Assembly: GCF_030818795.1 (NCBI RefSeq)
Contig: NZ_JAUTAY010000001.1
Coordinates: forward strand, 2,356,001-2,420,000
Length of the DNA: 64,000 bases
Reading direction: 5' to 3'
From: Microbacterium sp. SORGH_AS_0862
GTDB taxonomy: Bacteria > Actinomycetota > Actinomycetes > Actinomycetales > Microbacteriaceae
Part shown: piece by piece, positions 3,648 to 16,807 of the stretch
Position numbering within the stretch: position 1 is the first letter of the stretch
Layout of the letters: each line of letters starts with the position of its first letter
Program-made: the position numbers and the translations under genes
The notes under the pieces: generated by a model
What the model saw: the letters and a program-made list of their open reading frames with translations, nothing else
Told to the model about the DNA's origin: nothing
Database searches by the model: none

Positions 3648-5339
3648 CTACTTGCGCTCGTCGCCCGTGTCCGGCGTGCTCGACGGGGTCGCGATGGCTC
3701 CGGTCGCGGTCAACGTGGCCATAGCCTCCGGCACCGACACCGTCGCCAGATCCGCCTCGGAGGCATGTGCACGCTCCGTCGTGGTCATCCGCGTCAGCGG
3801 GGTGTTCGGGAGGAACACGATCGCCAGCACGCTCAGCACGGCCACGGGCACCGCGATGAGGAACGCGTGGGAGATGCCGTTCGCGTACACATCCTCGAAG
3901 ATGACCCGCAGCGGCTCAGGCATCGCCGAGACCTGCGGCAGAGTGCCCGAGCTCAGCTGAGTGGCCCACTGCGCGCCCGCTTCGCCCAGCCCGGCCAGCG
4001 CGGTGCGGACCTCGTCCGCCCGGTCGGTGAGCAGGTCGGTCACCCGGGCCGCCAGAGCCGCGCCCATCACGGAGACGCCGATCGTGCCGCCGAGACTGCG
4101 GAAGAACGTGACGCCCGAGCTCGCGGCGCCGATCTCGGTCGGGTGCGAGGTGTTCTGCACGACGAGCACGAGATTCTGCATGGTCATGCCGACACCCGCG
4201 CCCAACAGGAACATGTACACCGACACGAGGACGAAGGGGGTGTCGTAGTGGATCGTCGACAGCAGTGCGGAGCCCGCCGTCAGCAGCACGCCGCCCGCGA
4301 TGAGGTAAGGCTTCCAGTGACCGAACCGGGTGATGAGCGCTCCGACGCCCATGGATGCGACGAGCAGTCCCGCGATCATCGGGATGGTCATCACGCCGGC
4401 CTCGGTCGGCGTGGCCCCGCGAGCCGACTGCATGTACTGGCTCAGGTACACGGACGCGCCGAACATCGCGATGCCGGTGGCGATCGAGGCGATCACGGCC
4501 AGCGTGAAGGTGCGGTTGCGGAAGAGCGTCAGAGGGATGAGGGGTTCGCGCACCCGCAGCTCGACGACGATGAACAGGATCGTCGCGAGGACCGCGCCGC
4601 CGATCATGAACAGCGTGTTCAGGCTCCACCAGTCGAAGGACTTGCCGGCCAGGGTGACCCAGATGAGCAGGAGGGAGACGGCGGTGGCCAGCAGCACGAT
4701 GCCCGTGTAGTCGATCGACACCTTGCGCGGCGTGCGCTGGGGGAGGTGGAGGGTGCGCTGGACGATGAGCAGGGCGGCGACGGCGAAGGGCAGCGCGACG
4801 AAGAAGTTCCAGCGCCAGCCCCAGGCGTCCGTGATGACGCCGCCGAGCAGCGGGCCGCCGACGGTCGCGACCGCCATCACGGCGCCGAACAGGCCCATGT
4901 AGCGCCCGCGCTCACGCGGGCTGATGATGTCCGACATGATGACCTGGCTGAGTGCGGCCAGGCCGCCGGCGCCGATGCCCTGGACCGCGCGGAACGCGAT
5001 GAGCATCTCGGGGCTCTGCGAGAACCCGGCGGCCGCCGTGGCGAGGACGAAGATCGCGATGGCCAGCTGGTAGAGCACCTTCCGGTTCGTGAGGTCCGCG
5101 AGCTTGCCCCAGATGGGGGTCGTGATCGCGGTGGTCAGGAGGGTCGCGGTGACGACCCACGTGAAGGAACTCTGGTCCCCGGAGAGGTCGTGGATGATCA
5201 CGGGGAGCGAGGTCGAGACGACGGTCGAGGCGAGCATCGACACGAACATGCCCAGCAGCAGGCCGGACAGGGCTTCGAGGACGTGACGGCGCGAGGTCTT
5301 GCTCGACGCGTCCGTCGGTCGGGAGATGGTGGTGGTCAC
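3648..5339 (-). CDS. MFS exporter, DHA2 (EmrB/QacA, 14-TM) family
   Basis: The 563-residue membrane protein has about 14 hydrophobic helices, the length and number expected of proton-driven DHA2 multidrug exporters. Motif A is seen as WGKLADLTNRK after TM2 and the antiporter motif C as VGGPLLGG in TM5. It starts with GTG at 5339, with GAAGGA seven to eight bases upstream. The C-terminus is a long cytoplasmic tail. With the marR gene directly behind it and operator-like dyads over its promoter, it is a classic inducible efflux operon; the exported compound cannot be predicted. Confidence 0.9.
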   Translation of the reverse strand: MTTTISRPTDASSKTSRRHVLEALSGLLLGMFVSMLASTVVSTSLPVIIHDLSGDQSSFTWVVTATLLTTAITTPIWGKLADLTNRKVLYQLAIAIFVLATAAAGFSQSPEMLIAFRAVQGIGAGGLAALSQVIMSDIISPRERGRYMGLFGAVMAVATVGGPLLGGVITDAWGWRWNFFVALPFAVAALLIVQRTLHLPQRTPRKVSIDYTGIVLLATAVSLLLIWVTLAGKSFDWWSLNTLFMIGGAVLATILFIVVELRVREPLIPLTLFRNRTFTLAVIASIATGIAMFGASVYLSQYMQSARGATPTEAGVMTIPMIAGLLVASMGVGALITRFGHWKPYLIAGGVLLTAGSALLSTIHYDTPFVLVSVYMFLLGAGVGMTMQNLVLVVQNTSHPTEIGAASSGVTFFRSLGGTIGVSVMGAALAARVTDLLTDRADEVRTALAGLGEAGAQWATQLSSGTLPQVSAMPEPLRVIFEDVYANGISHAFLIAVPVAVLSVLAIVFLPNTPLTRMTTTERAHASEADLATVSVPEAMATLTATGAIATPSSTPDTGDERK

Positions 5340-5481: not shown

Positions 5482-6135
5482 TCAGTCGCTGAAGACGAGC
5501 GCGCGATACTCGCGACGCGGCGGAGCCTCCGGGGCGGGCGCGGGCGCGCGACCGCGTGTCGTGCGCAGGTGCAGCTCGTCGATGAGGGCGGTCGCAAGGC
5601 GCACGAGCTTGCCGATCTCGACCTCGTCGCGCTCGACCCATGCGCACCGCGGCTCGTCGTCGACGGGGACGAAGCCGTCGTGCTGCTCCCAGGCGACGAG
5701 GGTGCGCTCGGCGCCGAGCACGTGCTGCTGCCACCACACCTGACGCAGGTAGCCGCGCGGGATCGACCGCCACGACTTGTTGGTCGTCTTGATCTCCGCC
5801 AGCGTGACCCGGCCTTCGGTATCGACGGCGATGCCGTCGGGAGTCGCGAGATGGCGCTTCTCGACGACCGCGTGGAACAGCGCCGACGAGGGCTGGATGC
5901 CGTGGGTCGCGGCGACCCATGCGGCGATCTCGGGCTCGCGGCGCCGGCCGTGATCGGTGTAGGCGTTGCCCGAGAACCTCGAGCCGCCCAGCTTCTGGTC
6001 GGCGGCCTTCGCGATCGCCCGCTCACTCGTGAGCGATGCCACATCCGTCGCCGTGATGCCGCGTGAGCGCGCCCGGATCCACGCCACCCGGTCGCGGGAG
6101 TCCGCGACGATGCGAGCGGCGAGTTCGGGGGTCAC
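5482..6135 (-). CDS. YqaJ-type viral recombinase family nuclease
   Basis: The 217-residue protein has the PD-(D/E)xK exonuclease layout of the YqaJ family (lambda-exonuclease-like): an N-terminal RGITATDVASL segment, the REPEIAAW glutamate helix near residue 65, the acidic residue in TPDGIAVD and the catalytic LAEIKTT (ExK) strand near residues 115-120. In phages such enzymes resect DNA ends for single-strand annealing; chromosomal copies are common in actinobacteria and their role is unclear. No phage gene neighbours it. The GTG start sits six bases after TACGCT (minus-strand reading, 6142-6147), which fits a leaderless transcript. It ends upstream of the efflux promoter and seems to be an independent gene. 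Confidence 0.8.
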   Translation of the reverse strand: MTPELAARIVADSRDRVAWIRARSRGITATDVASLTSERAIAKAADQKLGGSRFSGNAYTDHGRRREPEIAAWVAATHGIQPSSALFHAVVEKRHLATPDGIAVDTEGRVTLAEIKTTNKSWRSIPRGYLRQVWWQQHVLGAERTLVAWEQHDGFVPVDDEPRCAWVERDEVEIGKLVRLATALIDELHLRTTRGRAPAPAPEAPPRREYRALVFSD

Positions 6136-6305
6136 CTCTCGAGCGTACGCCCGGTGGCCGACGCCTTCGAGAACGACATGCGCCGCCGGCGGCGCCGGGG
6201 CGGATATTTGGAACGGCTGGGAAACCGGTAAGAAATCTCTGAACCCTAGGGTCGGGCCGTTGCACCTTCCTCGCGAATTCGCGCCCGTGCCGACCCAGGG
6301 GGACC

Positions 6306-7823
6306 ATGTCCGACTCCGCTCTCCGACCGCACCGCCGTGGCCGGATCCTCACCGCAGCGCTCATCGTCGGAGCCGTCGTCGCGGCCTCCGCGGTGGCGAC
6401 CGTTCCCGCCGTCGGCGCTGAGCCGACGGTCGGCGCCCGCACGGCGGGTGACCCGCTCTTCCCCCACGTCGGCAACGGTGGCTACGACGTCACCCACTAC
6501 GACCTGGACCTCACGTACCGCGCGAACGACGACGTGAGCGCGGTCGCGACGATCGCCGCCACCGCTCCGGCGCCGCTGTCGGCCTTCTCGCTCGACTTCG
6601 AGGGCATGACCGTCGACAGTGTGACGGTCAACGGGGTGCCTGCCCAGTTCTCCCGTGAGCAGGATGTGGACGCCACTCTCTTCAAGCTCGACATCACCCC
6701 CGCGACGGCGGTGAGCGGACCGTTCACGGTCGCGGTGGCCTACTCGGGCGCTCCCGTCAGGCACATCGACGCCGACGGTTCCTCGGAGGGGTGGGTGAAG
6801 ACATCCGACGGCGTGACGGCCCTGGGTCAGCCGATCGGAGCCATGACCTGGTTCCCGCAGAACAACGCCCCGGCGGACAAGGCCACCTACGACATCAGCG
6901 TGACGGCGCCCACCGCCGCCGGCGGCAACCCGCTGAGCGTCGCGAGCAACGGCGAGCTGATCGGCAAGACCGTCGACGCCCAGGCGGGGACCACCACCTG
7001 GGACTGGCAGCAGCGCAATCCCATGGCGACCGAGCTCTCCGTCCTCTCGATCGGGCGCTTCAACGTGCTGGAGAGCGACATCACCCTCGCGAGCGGCCGC
7101 ACGCTGCACGAGTGGAGCTTCGTCGACCCGACCATCAGCGTGAACGTCCAGAACGCGATCAACACGCGTCGCGGTGAGATCAAGCAGATCATCGACTGGC
7201 TCGAGACGAAGCTCGGCCCCTACCCCGGCAACAGCGTCGGCCTCATCGTCGACCGCGTCGGCGTCGGGTACGCCCTGGAGACCCAGGACCGGCCGTTCTT
7301 CGACGGGAGCGTCTCCGCCAACACGCTCATCCACGAGCTCGTCCACCAGTGGCTGGGCAACGAGGTCGCCCCGGCCGACTGGTCGCACATCTGGCTCAAC
7401 GAGGGCGCGGCGGAGTTCTTCACCACCTACTACCGCTACGGCGTCGGCCTCAGCCAGACCACCCCGGAGAACGACTCGTTCGGCAGCTGGAGCTCTGCGT
7501 CGGCCTCCCGGTGGCTGACGCCCACCCGTCGGTTTCACCGACCCGGCCGAACTGTACGACTGGCAGGTCTACAACCGCGGAAAGTACACGCTCGGCGCCC
7601 TCATGACGGCCATCGGCCGCGACGCCTTCGACGCGACATATGCCACGTGGACGAAGGCGCACGCCGGCGGTTCCGCGGACACCGACGACTTCATCGCGCT
7701 CGCGGAGCAGGTCTCCGGGCGCGAGCTGGGTGCGTTCTTCCAGGACTGGCTGTTCGACACGGACAAGCCGGCCTGGCCCGCGATGTGGACCGCGGGCATC
7801 ACGAGCGACGTACCCGCGGGTGA
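6306..7823 (+). CDS. Secreted M1-family aminopeptidase, 5' part of a frameshifted M1/5'-nucleotidase gene
   Basis: The product begins with a signal peptide (RRGR, a hydrophobic core, cleavage near VGAEP). The gluzincin zinc site is complete: HELVH (H343, E344, H347) and the distal Glu E366 in WLNEGAAEF, with the expected 18-residue spacing. A YALETQDRP segment takes the place of the GAMEN exopeptidase motif, as in related bacterial M1 proteins. Up to about nucleotide 7518 the frame is plainly M1. Beyond that it becomes arginine-rich nonsense and stops at 7823. The proper continuation (VGFTDPAELYDWQVYN) is in the +1 frame, so one extra base around 7519-7530 explains the break. ATG 6306 follows AGGGGACC. 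If intact, the full protein would be about 1,380 residues and wall-anchored. Confidence 0.85.
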   Translation: MSDSALRPHRRGRILTAALIVGAVVAASAVATVPAVGAEPTVGARTAGDPLFPHVGNGGYDVTHYDLDLTYRANDDVSAVATIAATAPAPLSAFSLDFEGMTVDSVTVNGVPAQFSREQDVDATLFKLDITPATAVSGPFTVAVAYSGAPVRHIDADGSSEGWVKTSDGVTALGQPIGAMTWFPQNNAPADKATYDISVTAPTAAGGNPLSVASNGELIGKTVDAQAGTTTWDWQQRNPMATELSVLSIGRFNVLESDITLASGRTLHEWSFVDPTISVNVQNAINTRRGEIKQIIDWLETKLGPYPGNSVGLIVDRVGVGYALETQDRPFFDGSVSANTLIHELVHQWLGNEVAPADWSHIWLNEGAAEFFTTYYRYGVGLSQTTPENDSFGSWSSASASRWLTPTRRFHRPGRTVRLAGLQPRKVHARRPHDGHRPRRLRRDICHVDEGARRRFRGHRRLHRARGAGLRARAGCVLPGLAVRHGQAGLARDVDRGHHERRTRG

Positions 7824-10452
7824 GACCGTCCTTCCGGGCGACACGGCGACGCTGACGCTCAAGGTCGAGAACACCGGACGGGTCGACCTGGCCGGCGCGA
7901 CCGTCGTCGCCGATGCGACCCAGCTGCTGACCCAGGCATCCTTCCCGATCCTCCCGAAGGATGTCGCACGTCAGGACTCGACGCTGACATGGTCGATCCC
8001 CACGACCGCGCCCGGCGCGACCGCATCCGTCGACATCGAGGTGAAGGTGGCCGCGGAGGCCCCCGGCGGTGCGATCACGATCCCGATCACGGCGCCGCAG
8101 CTGGGCTCGACCCTGACCTCGGCCCAGGCGGTCTTCCAGGTCGCCGGCCCCGTCGCGCTGAACCTGCTCAACATCAACGACTTCCACGGACGCATCGACC
8201 AGAACACGGTCAAGTTCGCCGGGACGATCGAGCAGCTGCGCGCGGAGTACGGCGAGGCCAACACCCTGTTCCTCTCCGACGGTGACAACATCGGTGCATC
8301 CCTGTTCGCCTCGTCGTACTTCAAGGACGAGCCGACCCTCGAGGTGCTGAACGCGCTGGAACTGAAGGCGTCCGCGGTCGGCAACCATGAGTTCGACAAG
8401 GGGATCGCCGATCTCACCGGTCGTGTCGCCGACAGCGCCGACTTCACCTATCTCGGCGCGAACGTCTACGACGCGAAGACGGGGGAGGTGCTGCTCCCGG
8501 AGTACGCGACCTTCACCGTCGACGGGCTGACGGTCGCCGTCATCGGCGCCGTCACGGAGGAGACGCCGAGCCTGGTCTCGCCCGACGGCATCAAGGGAGT
8601 CACGTTCGGTGACCCTGTCGCAGCCGTCAACCGGGTGGCCGCGCAGCTGACCGACGGCGACCCGGCCAACGGAGAGGCGGACGTCATCGTCGCGGAGTAT
8701 CACGAGGGTGCGTCGGCGGGCACGCCCGACAAGTCGACCCTCGAACAGGAGGTCGCGCACGGGGGAGCATTCGCCTCGATCGTCGAGGACACCTCCGCGG
8801 CGGTCGATGCCATCTTCACCGGCCACACCCACAAGCTCTACGCGTGGGAAGCTCCGATCCCGGGCACGGATCGCACACGTCCCATCGTTCAGACCGGAAA
8901 CTACGGTGAGAACATCGGCCAGGTCGTGCTGCAGCTCGACCCGGTGACCGGAGCGGTGGAGTCCTACACGGTCAAGAACGCCGCGCGCACCACCGCCGCG
9001 GATGCCGACCTGGTCGCCGCATATCCCCGTGTCGCCGAGGTGAAGCGGATCGTGGACGCCACGCTGGCGGATGCCGCTGCCGTCGGCAACCAGCCGGTGG
9101 GGTCGGTGGCCGCCGACATCACGACCGCCTTCAGCGGTGGTTCCTACGTCGACGGCGTGTACCGAGGAGGAGCGCGCGACGACCGCGCCGCGCAGTCGAC
9201 GCTGGGCAACCTCGTCGCCGACTCCATCCGCGACGCACTGACCGACCCGGCGCGCGGTGGAGCCGAGATCGGTGTGGTCAACCCGGGCGGGTTGCGAGCC
9301 GAGTTGAACTACGCGCCCGACGGCGTCATCACGTACGCCGAGGCGAACGCCGTCCTGCCCTTCGTCAACAACCTGTGGACGACGGCCCTCACGGGCGCCC
9401 AGTTCACGAAGGTGCTCGAGGAGCAGTGGCAGCTCGACGACAAGGGCCAGGTCCCCTCGCGGCCGTACCTGCAGCTCGGACTGTCCGAGAACGTGTTCTA
9501 CACCTACGACGCCGCGGCGGCGCAGGGCTCGCACATCACAGGCGTGTGGATCGACGGACAGCCGATCGACCCGAATCGCGAGTACCGCGTGGGCTCGTTC
9601 AACTTCCTGCTGACCGGTGGTGACAACTTCCGCACCTTCAAGGAGGGGACCCAGACGCGCGACTCGGGTCTCGTCGACCGCGACGCCTGGATCGACTACC
9701 TGGCGGCGCATCCCGCACTGGCACCGGACTTCTCATCCCGCAGCGCACAGGTGTCCGGTCTTCCGGCATCCGTCGTCGCGGGCGAGGCCGTCACCTTCCA
9801 GGTGTCGCGGTTCGACCTGACCTCGCTCGGGAGCCCCGCCAACACGGTGCTGGAGCCGTCGATCGGTCAGGCCGCCTACGCGCCGATCGCCGTCACGAAC
9901 GGTGTGGCGAACGTGTCGTTGACGACGCCCAGCGACGTCGCCGGGCCGGCGGTCGTCTCTCTCAAGGCGCCGGATTCGGGGACCGTCATCCGCGTGCCGA
10001 TCGATGTGCGCCCGGCTGTTCCGGGAACGGGTGGCGGCGTGGTCGAGACGCCGGCGCCCGAGTCGGCGCTCACGCCCGCCACCCAGAATGCGGTCCAGAT
10101 CCAGGGCGGGACGACCCTCCAGCCCGGGCAGACGATCACGATCCACGTCGGCGAGGAGTACGCCGGCGACTGGGTGAGCGTCTGGTTGCGCTCCGACCCG
10201 CTGCTGCTGGGCTGGTACCGCGTGGACGAGCTCGGCAACATCACGGTGACCCTGCCCGCGGGCGTCTCGGGGGCGCATCGACTCATCGTGCAGGATGCGG
10301 AGGGCAACGTGATCGGGTGGCAACAGGTCCAGATCGGCGCGCTGCCCAGCACGGGCCAGGACGGCGGATTGATTCTCGGGCTGTCGCTCGTCGCCCTGCT
10401 CCTGGTCGGTGCGGGAGTCTCGGCGCGGACCATCCGTCGCAGGCGATCCTGA
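7603..10452 (+). CDS. Bifunctional metallophosphatase/5'-nucleotidase, 3' part of the same frameshifted gene, LPSTG-anchored
   Basis: This frame is open from 7519 on, after a TGA at 7516-7518; ATG 7603 lies inside the M1 domain and is not a natural start. Up to about residue 70 it completes the M1 helical domain, then a CARDB/DUF11-like beta domain follows (about residues 72-180). The calcineurin-like metallophosphatase has NDFHG (D193, H195), GNHE (N261, H262) and GHTH (H408, H410). The 5'-nucleotidase C-terminal domain runs to about residue 700. A beta-rich stalk precedes LPSTG (914-918), a membrane helix and RRRR, a textbook sortase signal. It should release phosphate from extracellular nucleotides. 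It is strongly similar to the C-terminal half of the nuclease gene at 11870. Confidence 0.88.
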   Translation: MTAIGRDAFDATYATWTKAHAGGSADTDDFIALAEQVSGRELGAFFQDWLFDTDKPAWPAMWTAGITSDVPAGETVLPGDTATLTLKVENTGRVDLAGATVVADATQLLTQASFPILPKDVARQDSTLTWSIPTTAPGATASVDIEVKVAAEAPGGAITIPITAPQLGSTLTSAQAVFQVAGPVALNLLNINDFHGRIDQNTVKFAGTIEQLRAEYGEANTLFLSDGDNIGASLFASSYFKDEPTLEVLNALELKASAVGNHEFDKGIADLTGRVADSADFTYLGANVYDAKTGEVLLPEYATFTVDGLTVAVIGAVTEETPSLVSPDGIKGVTFGDPVAAVNRVAAQLTDGDPANGEADVIVAEYHEGASAGTPDKSTLEQEVAHGGAFASIVEDTSAAVDAIFTGHTHKLYAWEAPIPGTDRTRPIVQTGNYGENIGQVVLQLDPVTGAVESYTVKNAARTTAADADLVAAYPRVAEVKRIVDATLADAAAVGNQPVGSVAADITTAFSGGSYVDGVYRGGARDDRAAQSTLGNLVADSIRDALTDPARGGAEIGVVNPGGLRAELNYAPDGVITYAEANAVLPFVNNLWTTALTGAQFTKVLEEQWQLDDKGQVPSRPYLQLGLSENVFYTYDAAAAQGSHITGVWIDGQPIDPNREYRVGSFNFLLTGGDNFRTFKEGTQTRDSGLVDRDAWIDYLAAHPALAPDFSSRSAQVSGLPASVVAGEAVTFQVSRFDLTSLGSPANTVLEPSIGQAAYAPIAVTNGVANVSLTTPSDVAGPAVVSLKAPDSGTVIRVPIDVRPAVPGTGGGVVETPAPESALTPATQNAVQIQGGTTLQPGQTITIHVGEEYAGDWVSVWLRSDPLLLGWYRVDELGNITVTLPAGVSGAHRLIVQDAEGNVIGWQQVQIGALPSTGQDGGLILGLSLVALLLVGAGVSARTIRRRRS
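8155..10452 (+). repeat. Paralogous 5'-nucleotidase module, copy 1
   Basis: From LNLLNINDFHGRID to the C-terminus this module matches the second copy (14453-16807) in order and spacing. Shared blocks include NTLFLSDGDNIGAS, SAVGNHEFDKG, VNPGGLRAEL and the stalk motif TITIHVG-x2-YAGDWV. Nucleotide identity is also high by eye, so it is a duplicated or shuffled module. Confidence 0.85.
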
Positions 10453-10470
10453 GAGAACGTCGGCACTGAG

Positions 10471-10505
10471 GCAGCCCCCGCCCGGATGATCCGGGCGGGG
10501 GCTGC
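10471..10505 (+). terminator. Terminator hairpin after the 5'-nucleotidase gene
   Basis: Perfect 15-bp stem (GCAGCCCCCGCCCGG and complement) with a five-base loop ATGAT, starting 18 bases after the stop codon. No T-tract follows, as is common in high-GC actinobacteria. An 11-base G run (10513-10523) lies just downstream. Confidence 0.8.
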
Positions 10506-10525
10506 GCTGTCCGGGGGGGGGGGAT

Positions 10526-10561: not shown

Positions 10562-10765
10562 AAGCCAAAGACCGCCGGTCATCGCTGTGCGTGCAAACGT
10601 GACGCGATCGAAGCTCTGCCACGCAGGGGCCCGCGCAGGTGACACTGAACTTCCTCCTTCGGGAATCGAGCTCCGTGCGCTTGCGCCGGAGCTTTTGTCA
10701 TGTGCGGGTGGTCCAGGCCGACGCTCCGCCACCGCGGGGTGTCACGTTCACATCAAGGAGTGACC
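10562..10765 (+). ncRNA. Ribosomal protein L10 leader (autogenous control region of rplJL)
   Basis: The roughly 200-base leader begins with the AGCCAAAGACCGCCGGTC element typical of L10 leaders in actinobacteria, where the L10-L12 complex binds the mRNA to limit its own synthesis. It contains a terminator-like hairpin (10669-10696) before the rplJ ribosome-binding site. The interval 10453-10765 holds only the upstream terminator, the G run, the promoter and this leader; no gene is seen. Confidence 0.75.
10669..10696 (+). terminator. Attenuator-like hairpin in the L10 leader
   Basis: Stem AGCTCCG (10669-10675) pairs with CGGAGCT (10687-10693) and is followed at once by TTTT. This resembles an intrinsic terminator inside the leader and may set the basal rplJL level. 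Confidence 0.6.
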
Positions 10766-11254
10766 ATGGCGCAGAAGGATGCATCGGTCGCCGAGCTCAC
10801 GAAGAACTTCGAGGACTCGACCGCCGTTCTGCTGACCGAGTACCGCGGTCTGACGGTTGCCCAGCTGAAGCAGCTGCGCAACAGCATCCGTCAGGACGCG
10901 AGCTACGCCGTGGTGAAGAACACGCTGACCAAGATCGCCGCGAACAACGCGGGGATCACGGCGCTGGACGAGGACCTCAAGGGTCCCTCGGCCGTGGCGT
11001 TCGTGCACGGTGACTTCGTCGCCACTGCCAAGGCTCTGCGTGACTTCGCCAAGGCCAACCCGCTTCTCGTGATCAAGGGCGGCATCTTCGAGGGCAACGC
11101 CCTGAGTGCCGACGAGGTCAACAAGTACGCCTCCCTGGAGAGCCGTGAGGTTCTGCTGGCGAAGGCCGCGGGCATGATGAAGGCGACGATGGGCAAGGCT
11201 GCTGCCACCATCGACGCGCTTCGCGAAAAGCTGGAGACCGCCGAGGCCGCGTAA
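10766..11254 (+). CDS. rplJ: 50S ribosomal protein L10
   Basis: The 162-residue protein ([15 protein letters not shown]...) is full length for bacterial L10. It forms the base of the ribosomal stalk and carries L7/L12 dimers on its C-terminal helix (here ending [12 protein letters not shown]). ATG 10766 follows AAGGAGTGACC; the in-frame upstream start at 10700 lies in the leader and would add non-conserved residues. rplL follows after 51 bases, the normal operon order. It is unusual only in its setting: both flanking genes are extracellular nucleotide-degrading enzymes, and rpoB is not next door. Confidence 0.97.
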
Positions 11255-11305: not shown

Positions 11306-11689
11306 ATGGCGAAGCTCACCACTGAGGAGCTGCTCGAGCAGTTTGCCGGCCTGACCCTCGTCGAGCTCAGCGAGTTCGTGAAGGCGTTCGAGGAGAAGTT
11401 CGACGTCACCGCTGCCGCCCCCGTCGCCGTTGCCGGCGCTGCGGGTGCTGCTGGTGGCGCGGAAGAGGTCGAGGAGAAGGACTCCTTCGACGTCATCCTC
11501 GAGGCTGCCGGCGACAAGAAGATCCAGGTCATCAAGACGGTCCGCGAGCTCACCTCGCTGGGCCTCGGCGAGGCCAAGGCTCTCGTGGACGGCGCTCCCA
11601 AGCCCGTTCTCGAAGGCGCCAACAAGGAGACCGCCGACAAGGCGAAGGCCGCTCTCGAAGAGGCCGGCGCGACGGTCACCCTCAAGTAA
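11306..11689 (+). CDS. rplL: 50S ribosomal protein L7/L12
   Basis: The 127-residue acidic protein has the three usual parts: an N-terminal dimerisation and L10-binding helix pair ([20 protein letters not shown]), an Ala-rich hinge at about residues 40-55 ([16 protein letters not shown]), and the C-terminal factor-binding domain ([20 protein letters not shown] region to ATVTLK). It recruits translation GTPases to the ribosome. AGGAG lies nine bases before ATG. A strong terminator follows 16 bases after the stop, closing the rplJL operon. Confidence 0.98.
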
Positions 11690-11869: not shown

Positions 11870-14800
11870 ATGTCCCCCTCCCAGCCGAGGCGACCGTTCG
11901 CAGCGCTCGCCTTCGGGATCGGAACCGCGGTCGTCGCGGGCATGTTCGTGCCCGCCGTCGCCGTCGCCGCCGAACCCGCCGATGTCGTCATCAACGAGGT
12001 GTACCTCAAGGGCGGAAGTGCCAACGCTCCGTTCAACAAGAAGTTCGTCGAGCTGTACAACGCCGGCGACACCGCGCAGAGCCTGGAGGGCTGGTCGCTC
12101 CAATACCGTTCCGCCGACGGAACGGGGGGCCCTTCGGTCACCGAGCCGCTGAGCGGCGTCATCGAGCCCGATGACTACTACCTGATCGCATGGAACGGCA
12201 ACGGCGCCGTGGGCGCCGCGCTCCCCGTCACCCCGGACCTGTCGTTCGACAAGGGCTTCAACGCCTCCGGCACGACGGGCACGCTCTACCTCGCGGACAC
12301 CACGCAGGCGCTCACGCTTCCCACCGGATCCGTCGTGGGGCAGCAGCACGTCGTCGATCTTCTCGGCTACGGTGCATCCAAGACGTTCGAGACGAGCGTG
12401 GTCCCGGTCACCGGTGCGAACAGCGTCCCCAACTCGCTCGCCCGCACGAACTTCGTCGACACGGACAACAACGCGGGAGACTTCAGCCACCCCGCGCAGA
12501 TCACGCCGCAGGCATCCGCGACCTCGGGTATCGACCCCGACCCGGGCACCGACCCCGATCCCGGCACGGACCCGGATCCCGGCACCGACCCCGGAACCCC
12601 CGCGACCAGGACGATCGCCGAGATCCAGGGCACCGGCGGCGCGACGCCTCTGCTGGGCCAGACGGTCACCACGCGCGGCATCGTGACCGGCGCCTACGCG
12701 GAGGGCGGCTTCAACGGCTTCACCATCCAGACTCCCGGCACCGGCGGCGCGGTGGATGCTTCGCACGCCGCATCCGACGCCGTCTTCGTCTACGGAGGAT
12801 CCGGACAGGCGGGAGCGGCCCTCGCCGCGAAGGCCCCGATGGGCGCCTACGTCGAGGTGACCGGCGTGGCCGGCGAGTACTCGAGCGTCGCGGGCGACGC
12901 CCAGACCCTCACACAGCTCAACGTCTCGGCGGGCTCGGTCACCACGATCGACGAGCAGGTCGCGGCGGTGACGCCGGTGCCCCTCTCCTGGCCGATCGCG
13001 CCGGCGGACCGCGAGAAGTTCGAGAGCATGCTCGTCGCTCCCCAGGGCCGGTTCACGGTGAGCAACACGTACACGACGAACCAGTACGCCGAGATCGGGC
13101 TCGCCTCGGGCGAGAAGCCGCTCATCACACCGACGGATGTCGCGCGTGTGGGCACCCAGGAGTACACGGACGCCGTCGCCGACAACGCCGCGCGCGGTGT
13201 CGTGCTCGACGACGGCGCGTCGATCAACTTCCTCGGCGGTTCGACGAACAAGGCGATCCCGCTGCCGTACCTGACCGACGTCGATGTCACGGTGGGCGGC
13301 GCGGTGTCGTTCACGCAGCCGGTGATCCTGGACTACCGCAACGGCGCCTGGAAGGTTCAGCCGACCACGCAGCTCGAGGCCGGCGACCCGCTGCCCGTCA
13401 CCATCGGGTCGGCGCGCGCAGCATCCGCACCCGACGCGGTCGGCGGCGACATCTCGATTGCCAGCTTCAACGTGCTGAACTACTTCACGACGACCGCCGC
13501 AGAGGTGGGCTGCACGTCGGTCTACACGGATCGAGACGGCACCCCCATCACGGCGAACCAGTGCCCGAACAACGGCCCGCGCGGCGCCGCGACCGACGTC
13601 AGCCTGAAGCGTCAGCAGGACAAGATCGTCGACGCGATCAACAACCTCGGCACCGAGGTCGTCTCGCTCGAGGAGATCGAGAACTCGGCGGCGTTCGGCA
13701 AGAACCGCGACACCGCGCTGTCGAGCCTCGTCGACGCCCTGAACGCCGATCTCGGCGCGGACGAGTGGGCCTACGTGCCCTCGCCCAGCCAGGTGCCCGC
13801 CGGTGAGGACGTCATCCGCACCGCGTTCATCTACAAGGCGGATGCGGTATCGCCGGTCGGCGACTCCGTCATCGACCTCGATGCCGCGTTCGTCAACGCG
13901 CGACGCCCGCTCGCTCAGGCGTTCGCCCCCAAGGGTGAGACGGATGCCGCCTTCCTGGCGATCGTGAACCACTTCAAGTCGAAGGGCGACGACCGCGACA
14001 ACCCGGCCACGGGCGACAACGCCAACGGGCCGCAGGGCGCCTACAACGGCGACCGGATGCGCCAGGCGCAGGCGCTCGTTGACTTCGCCGACGAGCGGAA
14101 GGCGGCTGCCGGGACCGACCGCGTGTTCCTGCTCGGCGACTTCAACTCGTACACGCAGGAAGACCCCATGCAGGTCTTCTACGCGGCCGGGTACACCGAT
14201 CTCGGATCCCGCACGGGCAAGCACACGTACTCCTTCGACGGTGCGAGCGGCTCGCTCGATCACGTGCTCGCCTCGCCTGCCGCCGCCAAGATGGTCACCG
14301 GCGTCGACGTGTGGAACATCAACGCGGGGGAGTCGATCGCGCTCGAGTACAGCCGGTACAACTACAACGCGACGAACTTCTACGAGGTGTCGCCCTACCG
14401 CTCCAGCGACCACGACCCGGTCGTGGTGGGCATCACGTGGCGCCCGACGGTCGAGCTGAACCTGCTGAACATCAACGACTTCCACGGTCGCATCGACGAC
14501 AACACGGTCAAGTTCGCGGGCACCATCGAGCGGTTGCGGGCGGAGGGCGGCGAGGAGAACACGCTGTTCCTCTCCGACGGCGACAACATCGGAGCCTCCC
14601 TGTTCGCCTCGTCGGTGGCCGACGACAAGCCGACCTTGGACGTTTTGAACGCGCTGGAGCTGAGCGCCTCGGCGGTCGGCAACCACGAGTTCGACAAGGG
14701 TCTCGAGGATCTCGAAGGACGTGTCAAGGATCAGGCGGCGTTCCCGTACCTCGGAGCGAACGTCTACAACAAGGGAACCACCACGCCGGCGCTGCAGGAG

Positions 14801-16807
14801 TATGCGACGTTCGAGGTGCAGGGGCTGACGGTCGCCGTGATCGGCGCCGTGACGGAGGAGACTCCCACGCTCGTGTCGCCCGGCGGGGTGGCCACGGTCG
14901 ACTTCGGTGATCCCGTCGAGGCCGTGAACCGAGTGGCGGCGCAGCTGACCGACGGCGACCCGTCCAACGGTGAGGCGGACGTCATCATCGCCGAGTACCA
15001 CGAGGGCGCTGCAGCCGGCGTCACGGAGAAGTCGACGCTGGAGGAGGAGCTGAAGGACGGCAAGGCGTTCGCCGACATCGTCACCAACACCTCGGCCGCG
15101 GTCGACGCGATCTTCACCGGTCACACCCACAAGCTGTACGCGTGGGACGCCTCCATCCCGGGCACGGACCGCACGCGTCCGGTGGTGCAGACGGGCAACT
15201 ACGGCGAGAACATCGGTCAGGTGCGTCTGACGGTGGATGCGGAAACGGGAGATGTGCTCGCGCACACGCAGCGGAACGTGCCGCGCATCGCGATCGAGAA
15301 CGACGGCACCACCGCCAACGACGCGGCGCAGAGCGCGGCTCTGAACGCCGAACTGGCGGCTCAGTATCCGCGCGTCGCGGCGGTCAAGCAGATCGTCGAC
15401 GCGGCGCTCGCCTACGCCGCCGAGAAGGGCAGTGTCCCGGTCGGAAGCGTCACGGCGGACATCACGACGGCCTTCACGGGCGGTGCGTACACGGGTGGCG
15501 TCTACGCCGGGGGCACACGTGACAACCGCGCAGCGCAGTCGACGCTCGGCAATCTCGTCGCCGACTCGCTCGTGGCGACGCTGTCCGATCCGCTTCGCGG
15601 CGGCGCCGAGATCGGCGTGGTGAACCCCGGTGGCCTTCGCGCCGAGCTGCTGCGCGGCGACGACGGCGTGATCACGTTCGCCGAGGCGAACGCGGTCCTG
15701 CCGTTCGTGAACAACCTCTGGACGACGACCCTCACGGGCGAGCAGTTCACGCAGGTGCTCGAGGAACAGTGGCAGACGAACGCGGACGGCTCCATCCCGT
15801 CACGTCCGTACCTGGCGCTCGGTCTCTCGAAGAACGTGACCTACACCTACGACGCGGATGCGGCGCAGGGATCCCACATCACGGGCGTCTGGATCGACGG
15901 CGAGCCGATCGATCCCGCCGGCCAGTACCGGATCGGCTCGTTCAACTTCCTCCTGCAGGGCGGCGACAACTTCCGCACCTTCGCGGAGGGAACCGACACG
16001 CGCGACTCCGGGCTCATCGACCGGGATGCGTGGATCTCGTACCTGACGGCGAACAGCCCGGTCTCGCCGAGCTACGCCTCCCGCAGCGTCGAGGTGACGG
16101 GGCTCCCCGCATCCGTCGCGCCGGGCGCGCAGGTCTCGTTCCAGGTGGGCGGGCTGAACCTCACCTCGCTCGGAAGCCCGGAGACGACCTCCCTGCTGGT
16201 GAGCATCGAGGGCAGCACGGCCGTCCTCGATCCGGTCACCGTCACGGGCGGAGCGGCGACGGTTGCCTTCACGGTGCCTGCCGATGCGCCGGCCGACAGC
16301 ACGATCGTCCTCCAGGCCCCGCAGACGGGTACGGAACTCCGTCTGCCGCTGAAGGTGGCGTCCGACATCCCGCCGACCACGACGCCGCAGCCCGCGGATC
16401 CGAGCCAGCTCGTGCCCGCGCTGCAGGACCTCATCAAGGTCATCGCGGGCGAGCTGCGCGCCGGAGCCACGATCACGATCCACGTCGGCACGCAGTACGC
16501 GGGCGACTGGGTGACGGTCTGGCTGTACTCGACCCCGCGTCAGCTCGGTGGATGGCACCAGGTCGATGCGGCGGGCAATGTCACGGTGACCCTGCCGGCC
16601 GATCTCACGGGTGACCACCGGCTCGTCGTGCTCGACGCGAACGGCCAGGTCATCGGCTGGCAGGCGGTGTCCATCGCGCCCAGATCGGGCTCGCTGGCCG
16701 CCACCGGTGCGCAGACGCAGTGGATCGCGGGTGCGCTGCTCGCCGCCTCGCTGCTGCTCGCGCTCGGCATCGTCGGACGCGCGGTGCCGTTGCGTCGACG
16801 CAACTGA
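11870..16807 (+). CDS. ExeM/NucH-type extracellular nuclease fused to 5'-nucleotidase, wall-anchored
   Basis: A 1,645-residue secreted protein. Domains in order: signal peptide (to about residue 34), lamin-tail domain (about 36-190), a DPDPGT repeat linker (about 221-243), an OB-fold-like region, an endonuclease/exonuclease/phosphatase domain (about 525-850, with IASFNVLNYF, the LEEIEN metal-binding Glu, LLGDFNSY and SSDHDPVVV), a calcineurin-like phosphatase (from about 864, with NDFHG, GNHEFDKG, GHTHKLY), the 5'-nucleotidase C-terminal domain, a beta stalk, then LAATG (1609-1613), a membrane helix and RRR. It should cut extracellular DNA or RNA and then strip phosphate from the nucleotides. 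The end is a sortase-like signal variant. AGGAGATCC precedes ATG. It probably works with the M1/5'-nucleotidase encoded upstream. Confidence 0.92.
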   Translation: MSPSQPRRPFAALAFGIGTAVVAGMFVPAVAVAAEPADVVINEVYLKGGSANAPFNKKFVELYNAGDTAQSLEGWSLQYRSADGTGGPSVTEPLSGVIEPDDYYLIAWNGNGAVGAALPVTPDLSFDKGFNASGTTGTLYLADTTQALTLPTGSVVGQQHVVDLLGYGASKTFETSVVPVTGANSVPNSLARTNFVDTDNNAGDFSHPAQITPQASATSGIDPDPGTDPDPGTDPDPGTDPGTPATRTIAEIQGTGGATPLLGQTVTTRGIVTGAYAEGGFNGFTIQTPGTGGAVDASHAASDAVFVYGGSGQAGAALAAKAPMGAYVEVTGVAGEYSSVAGDAQTLTQLNVSAGSVTTIDEQVAAVTPVPLSWPIAPADREKFESMLVAPQGRFTVSNTYTTNQYAEIGLASGEKPLITPTDVARVGTQEYTDAVADNAARGVVLDDGASINFLGGSTNKAIPLPYLTDVDVTVGGAVSFTQPVILDYRNGAWKVQPTTQLEAGDPLPVTIGSARAASAPDAVGGDISIASFNVLNYFTTTAAEVGCTSVYTDRDGTPITANQCPNNGPRGAATDVSLKRQQDKIVDAINNLGTEVVSLEEIENSAAFGKNRDTALSSLVDALNADLGADEWAYVPSPSQVPAGEDVIRTAFIYKADAVSPVGDSVIDLDAAFVNARRPLAQAFAPKGETDAAFLAIVNHFKSKGDDRDNPATGDNANGPQGAYNGDRMRQAQALVDFADERKAAAGTDRVFLLGDFNSYTQEDPMQVFYAAGYTDLGSRTGKHTYSFDGASGSLDHVLASPAAAKMVTGVDVWNINAGESIALEYSRYNYNATNFYEVSPYRSSDHDPVVVGITWRPTVELNLLNINDFHGRIDDNTVKFAGTIERLRAEGGEENTLFLSDGDNIGASLFASSVADDKPTLDVLNALELSASAVGNHEFDKGLEDLEGRVKDQAAFPYLGANVYNKGTTTPALQEYATFEVQGLTVAVIGAVTEETPTLVSPGGVATVDFGDPVEAVNRVAAQLTDGDPSNGEADVIIAEYHEGAAAGVTEKSTLEEELKDGKAFADIVTNTSAAVDAIFTGHTHKLYAWDASIPGTDRTRPVVQTGNYGENIGQVRLTVDAETGDVLAHTQRNVPRIAIENDGTTANDAAQSAALNAELAAQYPRVAAVKQIVDAALAYAAEKGSVPVGSVTADITTAFTGGAYTGGVYAGGTRDNRAAQSTLGNLVADSLVATLSDPLRGGAEIGVVNPGGLRAELLRGDDGVITFAEANAVLPFVNNLWTTTLTGEQFTQVLEEQWQTNADGSIPSRPYLALGLSKNVTYTYDADAAQGSHITGVWIDGEPIDPAGQYRIGSFNFLLQGGDNFRTFAEGTDTRDSGLIDRDAWISYLTANSPVSPSYASRSVEVTGLPASVAPGAQVSFQVGGLNLTSLGSPETTSLLVSIEGSTAVLDPVTVTGGAATVAFTVPADAPADSTIVLQAPQTGTELRLPLKVASDIPPTTTPQPADPSQLVPALQDLIKVIAGELRAGATITIHVGTQYAGDWVTVWLYSTPRQLGGWHQVDAAGNVTVTLPADLTGDHRLVVLDANGQVIGWQAVSIAPRSGSLAATGAQTQWIAGALLAASLLLALGIVGRAVPLRRRN
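12533..12598 (+). repeat. Tandem DPDPGT-coding repeat (inter-domain linker)
   Basis: About three and a half 18-base units encode an Asp-Pro-Gly-Thr linker between the lamin-tail and nuclease parts. Units differ at synonymous positions (CCC/CCG, GAC/GAT), so the protein repeat is kept while the DNA has diverged. Confidence 0.85.
14453..16807 (+). repeat. Paralogous 5'-nucleotidase module, copy 2
   Basis: Second copy of the module at 8155-10452, in the same orientation about 6.3 kb away, with rplJL and the nuclease domains between them. It shares the catalytic blocks, the C-terminal stalk and the general anchor layout, but has LAATG in place of LPSTG. Confidence 0.85.

Follow-up and report, generated by a model that had tools for sequence, protein, structure and literature searches.

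The stretch of DNA analysed here (the window, 64,000 nucleotides) raises the question of whether an M1 aminopeptidase and a 5'-nucleotidase encoded end to end belong to one fused gene and, if so, what the joined protein would do at the cell surface. A sequence-only reading had proposed a single design interrupted by a frameshift, and the evidence from both pieces agrees with this proposal. As sequenced, the window's copy is split over two overlapping frames (6306..7823 and 7603..10452) and therefore cannot yield one protein. The first frame contributes a signal peptide, Peptidase_M1_N and that portion of Peptidase_M1 which includes the zinc site (E 7e-12), and the second carries DUF11, Metallophos (E 5e-7) and 5_nucleotid_C (E 2e-31), followed by the stalk and the LPSTG tail (Table 1), so that the break separates the HExxH-x18-E zinc site from the conserved M1 tyrosine. 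In alignment to an intact relative, similarity to the first frame extends up to ~7550 and similarity to the second starts at ~7522, hence a single frame change accounts for the split; past the break, the second frame stays open to the end of the gene. A codon-usage scan located the switch at ~7484-~7524 and found no other such junction within the 64-kb window. This is further strengthened by the relative P0001 (1,381 aa), which matches the whole length of the second piece at 98% identity, far beyond chance.

Table 1. Positions of the fusion gene, its parts and its neighbours in the window
Feature	Coordinates	Strand	Remarks
DHA2-type MFS efflux transporter, next flank gene	3648..5339	-	
YqaJ/lambda-exonuclease-like upstream flank gene	5482..6135	-	weak family match, below cut-off
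Stretch missing in close relative G035 (empty site)	6187..10522	n/a	
M1 aminopeptidase / 5'-nucleotidase fusion gene	6306..10452	+	split by one frame change, ~7485-~7550
Signal peptide, N-terminal, RR in n-region	6306..6419	+	read by eye; Sec or Tat both possible
Peptidase_M1_N domain	6492..7031	+	E 6e-10
M1 active site: YALET (GAMEN-like), HELVH, third zinc ligand Glu 18 residues on	7269..7403	+	
C-terminal part of M1 catalytic domain with conserved Tyr (YNRGKYTL)	7570..7776	+	second frame
DUF11-type beta sandwich between both enzymes	7822..8076	+	domain scores; model of M. halimionae homologue
Metallophosphatase domain (NDFHG, GDN, GNHEFD, AEYHEG, GHTH)	8164..8835	+	
5'-nucleotidase C-terminal domain (NPGGLR, GGDNF)	9172..9645	+	
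Beta-rich stalk	9757..10341	+	model mostly strands, pLDDT variable
LPSTG, hydrophobic stretch and RTIRRRRS tail (sortase-type sorting signal)	10342..10449	+	sequence; relatives
16-bp G+C-rich inverted repeat after stop	10471..10505	+	possible terminator without T run; read from sequence
rplJ	10766..11254	+	queries used 10745-11251
rplL	11306..11689	+	
ExeM/NucH-type paralogue: LTD, nuclease, 5'-nucleotidase, stalk, LAATG tail	11870..16807	+	
NucH 5'-nucleotidase module	14450..16099	+	73% protein identity to P0001 module

The domain content of the intact relatives, namely M1_N, M1, DUF11, metallophosphatase, 5'-nucleotidase C-terminal domain, stalk and an L(P/A)xTG tail in one chain, matches the design read from the window with one correction. 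The module between the two enzymes had been called CARDB-like; no CARDB match appeared at E <= 0.01, and the module scores as DUF11 instead, with 23.9 bits in the window (cut-off 24.6) and 24.8 bits in P0005. A consensus scan for promoters and terminators returned no promoter and terminators at the level of shuffled sequence, the inverted repeat behind the stop codon not being among them.

For the M1 half, Peptidase_M1 and M1_N scored above their gathering scores; for M1_N (25.8) this was true of the window piece, P0001 and P0005, with P0006 just under at 23.3. YALET, HELVH-x18-E and YNRGKYTL are kept in all six intact proteins (P0001-P0006), which thus hold the HExxH-x18-E zinc site, the exopeptidase glutamate and the catalytic tyrosine. 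We take the roles of these motifs, and of the dimetal and substrate motifs of the nucleotidase, from the known families. The M. halimionae M1-DUF11 model (mean pLDDT 92.4) found its best solved match in the two-domain M1 metallopeptidase of Deinococcus radiodurans (6ifg, target TM 0.91, 25% identity), an enzyme that was also the best match by sequence (6a8z). Surface enzymes may bear inactive heads, and the modest M1 Pfam scores would fit a head that serves for binding or structure; this seems unlikely to us, however, since the zinc site, the GAMEN-like glutamate and the tyrosine do not vary across the 40 rows of an alignment of chosen M1-family relatives or among the intact fusions, and since the M1 part is conserved between distant carriers at least as well as the nucleotidase (P0001 against P0005: M1 76.0%, nucleotidase 75.8% and 69.0%, DUF11 52.1%).

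The other half belongs with the UshA/CD73-type 5'-nucleotidases, as its Metallophos domain is followed by 5_nucleotid_C and the dimetal-site and substrate motifs NDFHG, GDN, GNHEFD, AEYHEG, GHTH, NPGGLR and GGDNF are kept in all six intact proteins; the motif DGDN reads AGDN in P0003 and P0005, with the inner aspartate kept. The half lies far below the UshA equivalog NF007109 (155.6 bits for the second piece and 156.8 for P0001, cut-off 600), and no NCBIfam equivalog exceeded its cut-off for either half of the fusion. A model of the window's nucleotidase and stalk was of moderate quality (mean pLDDT 74.3, pTM 0.58); its best matches were the E. coli 5'-nucleotidases and human CD73, with UshA matched by sequence too.

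The sequence-only reading had the protein anchored in the wall. An LPSTG motif at 10342, a hydrophobic stretch and a basic tail, recognised by eye and alike in the relatives, form a sorting signal, and the PF00746 anchor profile gave no score in the window pieces or in the relatives tested. The motif is LPSTG in P0001, P0002 and P0003, LPATG in P0004, LAVTG in P0005 and LPKTG in P0006, as against LAATG in the window's NucH neighbour. Two PF04203 sortase loci were found in the window's genome, one above the class E cut-off and the other under every class cut-off, and LAXTG is reported as the signal of class E sortases (PMC5148588). The LPSTG-type tail and the stalk of the earlier claim thus hold in sequence and model, while anchoring of the window's copy through LPSTG is uncertain, because the only sortase above a class cut-off belongs to class E.

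A search of 366 Microbacterium genomes with the M1 piece (E <= 1e-140, a cut-off that would miss more distant fusions) found the fusion in six, the window's own and five others. In these five the gene is a single open frame of 1,400-1,441 codons with no stops, compared with 526 codons for the window's own frame; in the DNA fetched, the stop-free frames measured 1,402 (L217), 1,400 (L218), 1,400 (L219), 1,413 (L220) and 1,440 codons (L039). Among protein sequences, Peptidase_M1 and 5_nucleotid_C shared one chain in six proteins (P0001-P0006, 1,375-1,405 residues) within the best 120 of 3,834 matches to the second piece, and the same six were the only ones to carry both domains within the best 120 of 169 matches to residues 1-560 of P0005. 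The overlap of the open frames in the window could suggest two neighbouring genes and a fusion that is an artefact of frame reading, and independent M1 and nucleotidase genes with a stop and a start between them were the finding that the sequence-only reading had named as fatal to its proposal. Nothing of the kind was found at this locus: five relatives are uninterrupted and six distinct one-piece forms stand in the protein databases, which leaves the two-gene account with next to no probability. Programmed frameshifting was likewise rejected, because the relatives have no shift at that place.

The expectation that this fusion would not be common also held. Across 198 genus genomes searched at E <= 0.001, M1 matches beyond the window's own genome and G105 were at most 59% identical, and a 5'-nucleotidase stood beside the M1 gene only in those two genomes (short loci of the best matches, and 20-kb regions round 16 matches). 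A search of 299 family genomes with P0001, in which two candidates were scored per genome and the window's own was listed by its second frame, gave 164 genomes with matches at E <= 1e-100 and, among the matches listed, no row covering both halves. Among the same matches, the halves lie at separate, distant places in at least five genomes (G304, G360, G389, G447, G475), which is the expected source state rather than a broken pair. A scan of named contigs yielded 79 loci, and a match to both halves was confined to M. halimionae (L038) and M. ginsengisoli (L039); among 116 loci both halves were encoded only by these two and the window's own genome. The search of open-access PMC text turned up no paper on such an M1-5'-nucleotidase fusion. 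The fusion is a rare, maintained new architecture built from known enzymes, and its patchy presence marks the gene as accessory.

The carriers share not only the gene but also its place. In all six (the window, L217, L218, L219, L220 and L039), an MFS transporter, a YqaJ-like gene, the fusion, rplJ, rplL and a NucH-type gene follow one another in this order, rplJ and rplL being, as we take them, the genes of ribosomal proteins L10 and L7/L12; the window DNA is 93.7% identical to L217 and 91.4% to L218. L038 and L220 lie on contigs of equal length (1,240,318) and count as one carrier, as do L036, L039 and L005 (contig of 87,963). The rplJ query matched in 145 of 149 genomes, and 40 rplJ regions of Microbacterium genomes other than the window's were fetched, 20 of them being the closest in rplJ and 20 picked from the rest. 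Neither the fusion nor any M1 gene was present in any of these 40, and two (L133, L160) had a NucH gene after rplL. An intact DHA2-type (EmrB-like) MFS efflux gene was seen near rplJ in 28 of the 40. In the close relative G035 (L133), which has the same rplJ and rplL protein sequences as the window (100% identity), the segment 6187-10522 is missing and the adjoining flanks align at 92% and 87%. The 40 regions and this empty site therefore mark the fusion as an accessory unit with a constant location. A run of eleven G (10513-10523) lies where similarity to the empty site resumes, 60 bases past the gene, and is possibly a junction scar or a stretch that is difficult to sequence.

Selection on the gene was estimated by simple counting. 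Between the intact copies L217 and L218, dN/dS was 0.03 for M1, 0.08 for the nucleotidase and 0.16 for the stalk, and between the window pieces and their nearest relative L217 the values were 0.022, 0.07 and 0.13, respectively. Against the distant L220 and L039, M1 and nucleotidase gave 0.07-0.28, which says little because dS (0.7-3) is near saturation. The low ratios among close copies imply that the joined protein has been maintained and that the window's break is either recent or an error; the relatives keep the gene unbroken at a single conserved position, and purifying selection acts on it.

If it is not a sequencing error, the break blocks the joined protein in the window's genome. A sequencing or assembly error, with the strain making the whole protein, has in our judgement slightly better than an even chance: five of the six carriers are intact, the window's M1 and nucleotidase parts show no relaxed selection against L217, and the eleven-G run lies just downstream. 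The density of frame-break-like junctions in the codon-usage scan is also higher in the window's own genome (8 in 464 kb, compared with 7 in 780 kb of 40 other genomes), counts that are too small to decide and a difference that could be chance or reflect real pseudogenes. The genome itself, a single contig of 3.50 Mb with 99.97% completeness, speaks against an error. A real and recent break, which we rate somewhat short of even, would make the gene a pseudogene whose nucleotidase half goes unexported, because the second frame (7603 on) lacks a signal peptide, with the NucH neighbour supplying 5'-nucleotidase activity. The break is, after all, present in the sequence itself, and the patchy presence of the gene (6/366) together with the empty site in a close relative indicates that it is dispensable; against this stand the lack of a second lesion and of any sign of relaxed selection. 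The scan also marked seven further junctions in the window's own genome, within 400 kb past the window (L193-L212), which are either pseudogenes, residual sequence errors or scan noise.

Comparison with the NucH neighbour reveals where the fusion was joined. The fusion's nucleotidase-stalk-anchor half is homologous to that of NucH, with clear similarity beginning at the start of the nucleotidase domain (8152 in the fusion, 14450 in NucH), and the M1-DUF11 half has its kin among secreted M1-DUF11 proteins that stand alone in Microbacteriaceae and other actinobacteria. The nuclease domain NF033681 is present in the neighbour and not listed for the fusion pieces, which places the fusion outside the ExeM/NucH family by this criterion. 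The gene thus encodes a secreted M1-DUF11 aminopeptidase that passes, where the 5'-nucleotidase domain begins, into a NucH-type nucleotidase-stalk-anchor module.

The two modules appear to have exchanged sequence. In M. halimionae, the nucleotidase modules of the fusion and NucH are identical over ~1.8 kb and drop sharply to 53-70% in the stalk, and the nucleotidase tree groups the fusion nucleotidase with the genome's own NucH. Because of this identity and tree placement, and because the M1 half of the same protein is only ~76% identical to those of P0001 and P0006, the stretch is best read as probable gene conversion between the paralogues across the ribosomal genes. An assembly artefact may instead explain it, although one 1.24-Mb contig spans both copies. 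The pair P0002 and P0003 offers a second mosaic sign, as the aligned proteins suggest, with 97% identity in M1, 66-90% in parts of DUF11, nucleotidase and stalk (94-100% between these) and 96-100% at the C-terminus. For the window's own genome no recent conversion was seen: the two modules never exceed 88% identity over 100 bases, and the ceiling is 91% when L217, L218, L219 and M. ginsengisoli are counted in as well. The window's NucH nucleotidase module (14450-16099) is 81% identical to that of L217 (dS 0.60) and the nuclease module 96% (dS 0.20), which suggests that one of the two lineages acquired a different nucleotidase module by recombination.

The trees alone do not establish a single origin of the fusion, a reading of them that we rejected. 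The nucleotidase tree places the fusions in three separate positions, and the M1 tree puts three stand-alone Microbacterium M1 genes and P0134 on long branches inside the fusion group, a join that the tree program itself flags as unsafe. As both trees fail to group the fusions cleanly, a single origin, which is likely, rests mainly on the shared locus. Two oddities lie elsewhere. A contig titled Vibrio cholerae strain 35D (L042, WNZI01000007.1) contains a nucleotidase gene whose product shares 60% identity with the M. halimionae fusion nucleotidase, and it is ranked amid records of Arthrobacter; it is probably mislabelled or contaminated. Moreover, open frames of 2,302-2,492 codons in G223, G261, G314 and G416 contain two 5'-nucleotidase matches in tandem, which is another multi-headed arrangement of the module.

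We consider it probable that the fusion is an exported, bifunctional surface enzyme that scavenges peptides and nucleotides, the architecture being near certain, the activities likely and the role one that we infer. The sequence-only reading had likewise proposed breakdown of both kinds of substrate at the surface, with a possible role in biofilm or on dead-cell debris. Once exported, the protein would stay attached to the cell, through sortase or at the minimum through its membrane segment. The M1 head would remove N-terminal residues from peptides, and the nucleotidase would dephosphorylate nucleotides (or UDP-sugars) made beside the cell, one source being the NucH nuclease, which is encoded 1.4 kb downstream; the amino acids, nucleosides and phosphate could then be imported. 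A more adventurous idea, to which we give very little weight, is that both sites act on one molecule with peptide and nucleotide parts and that the nucleotidase-stalk-anchor portion is a shared chassis that two heads exchange through gene conversion. Peptide-nucleotide antibiotics or aminoacyl-nucleotides from dying cells could be such substrates, the M1 site taking N-terminal residues and the nucleotidase the phosphate, which would give a detoxifying or salvaging surface enzyme, with peptidase and nuclease heads flanking an essential ribosomal operon.

Under the scavenging role that we prefer, and provided that both halves work, a single anchored protein would draw nutrients from dead-cell debris of two polymer classes. 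The fusion adds a peptidase-nucleotidase architecture to the actinobacterial surface enzymes, conserved across species whose M1 halves differ by ~24%. It also offers a clean natural case in which two paralogues have one domain cassette in common and apparently trade it across rplJ-rplL; a simple deletion between the repeats there would take out ribosomal protein genes. Taken singly, the parts are ordinary; what is unusual is their combination, its constant position next to rplJ-rplL and the probable exchange of the cassette.

Each half can be set beside known systems. The D. radiodurans M1 metallopeptidase (6a8z, 6ifg) resembles the M1 half in sequence, fold and zinc site, whereas its 474-residue chains have no DUF11, nucleotidase or anchor. 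The secreted M1-DUF11 aminopeptidases of Leifsonia, Leucobacter and Microbacterium have M1_N, M1 and DUF11 ordered as in the fusion; one example (P0121, 784 aa) is 52% identical to residues 1-560 of the M. halimionae fusion over 99%. These proteins lack the 5'-nucleotidase, and their 40-row consensus ends in an LxxTG-type tail of its own, in place of which P0134 has cell-wall-binding repeats. On the other side, UshA and CD73-type 5'-nucleotidases share the metallophosphatase and 5_nucleotid_C domains and the metal-site motifs but have no peptidase, the E. coli enzyme being ~20-22% identical in the fold matches. Natural UshA-CpdB fusions (mentioned in PMC10454023) also join a 5'-nucleotidase to another hydrolase, although the partner there is a further nucleotidase and that of the present fusion is a peptidase; in the passages of that paper covered here, no word starts with "peptidase", a test that "aminopeptidase" would escape. 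The wall-bound streptococcal Nt5e combines a 5'-nucleotidase with an LPxTG motif, as the fusion does, and surface 5'-nucleotidase activity has been shown for the S. sanguinis protein (PMC3369921). ExeM of Shewanella is a membrane-associated nuclease required for normal biofilm formation (PMC6085458). The window's own neighbour is an ExeM/NucH-type protein whose nucleotidase-stalk-anchor half is homologous to that of the fusion, but its head consists of a lamin-tail domain and a nuclease domain where the fusion has M1-DUF11.
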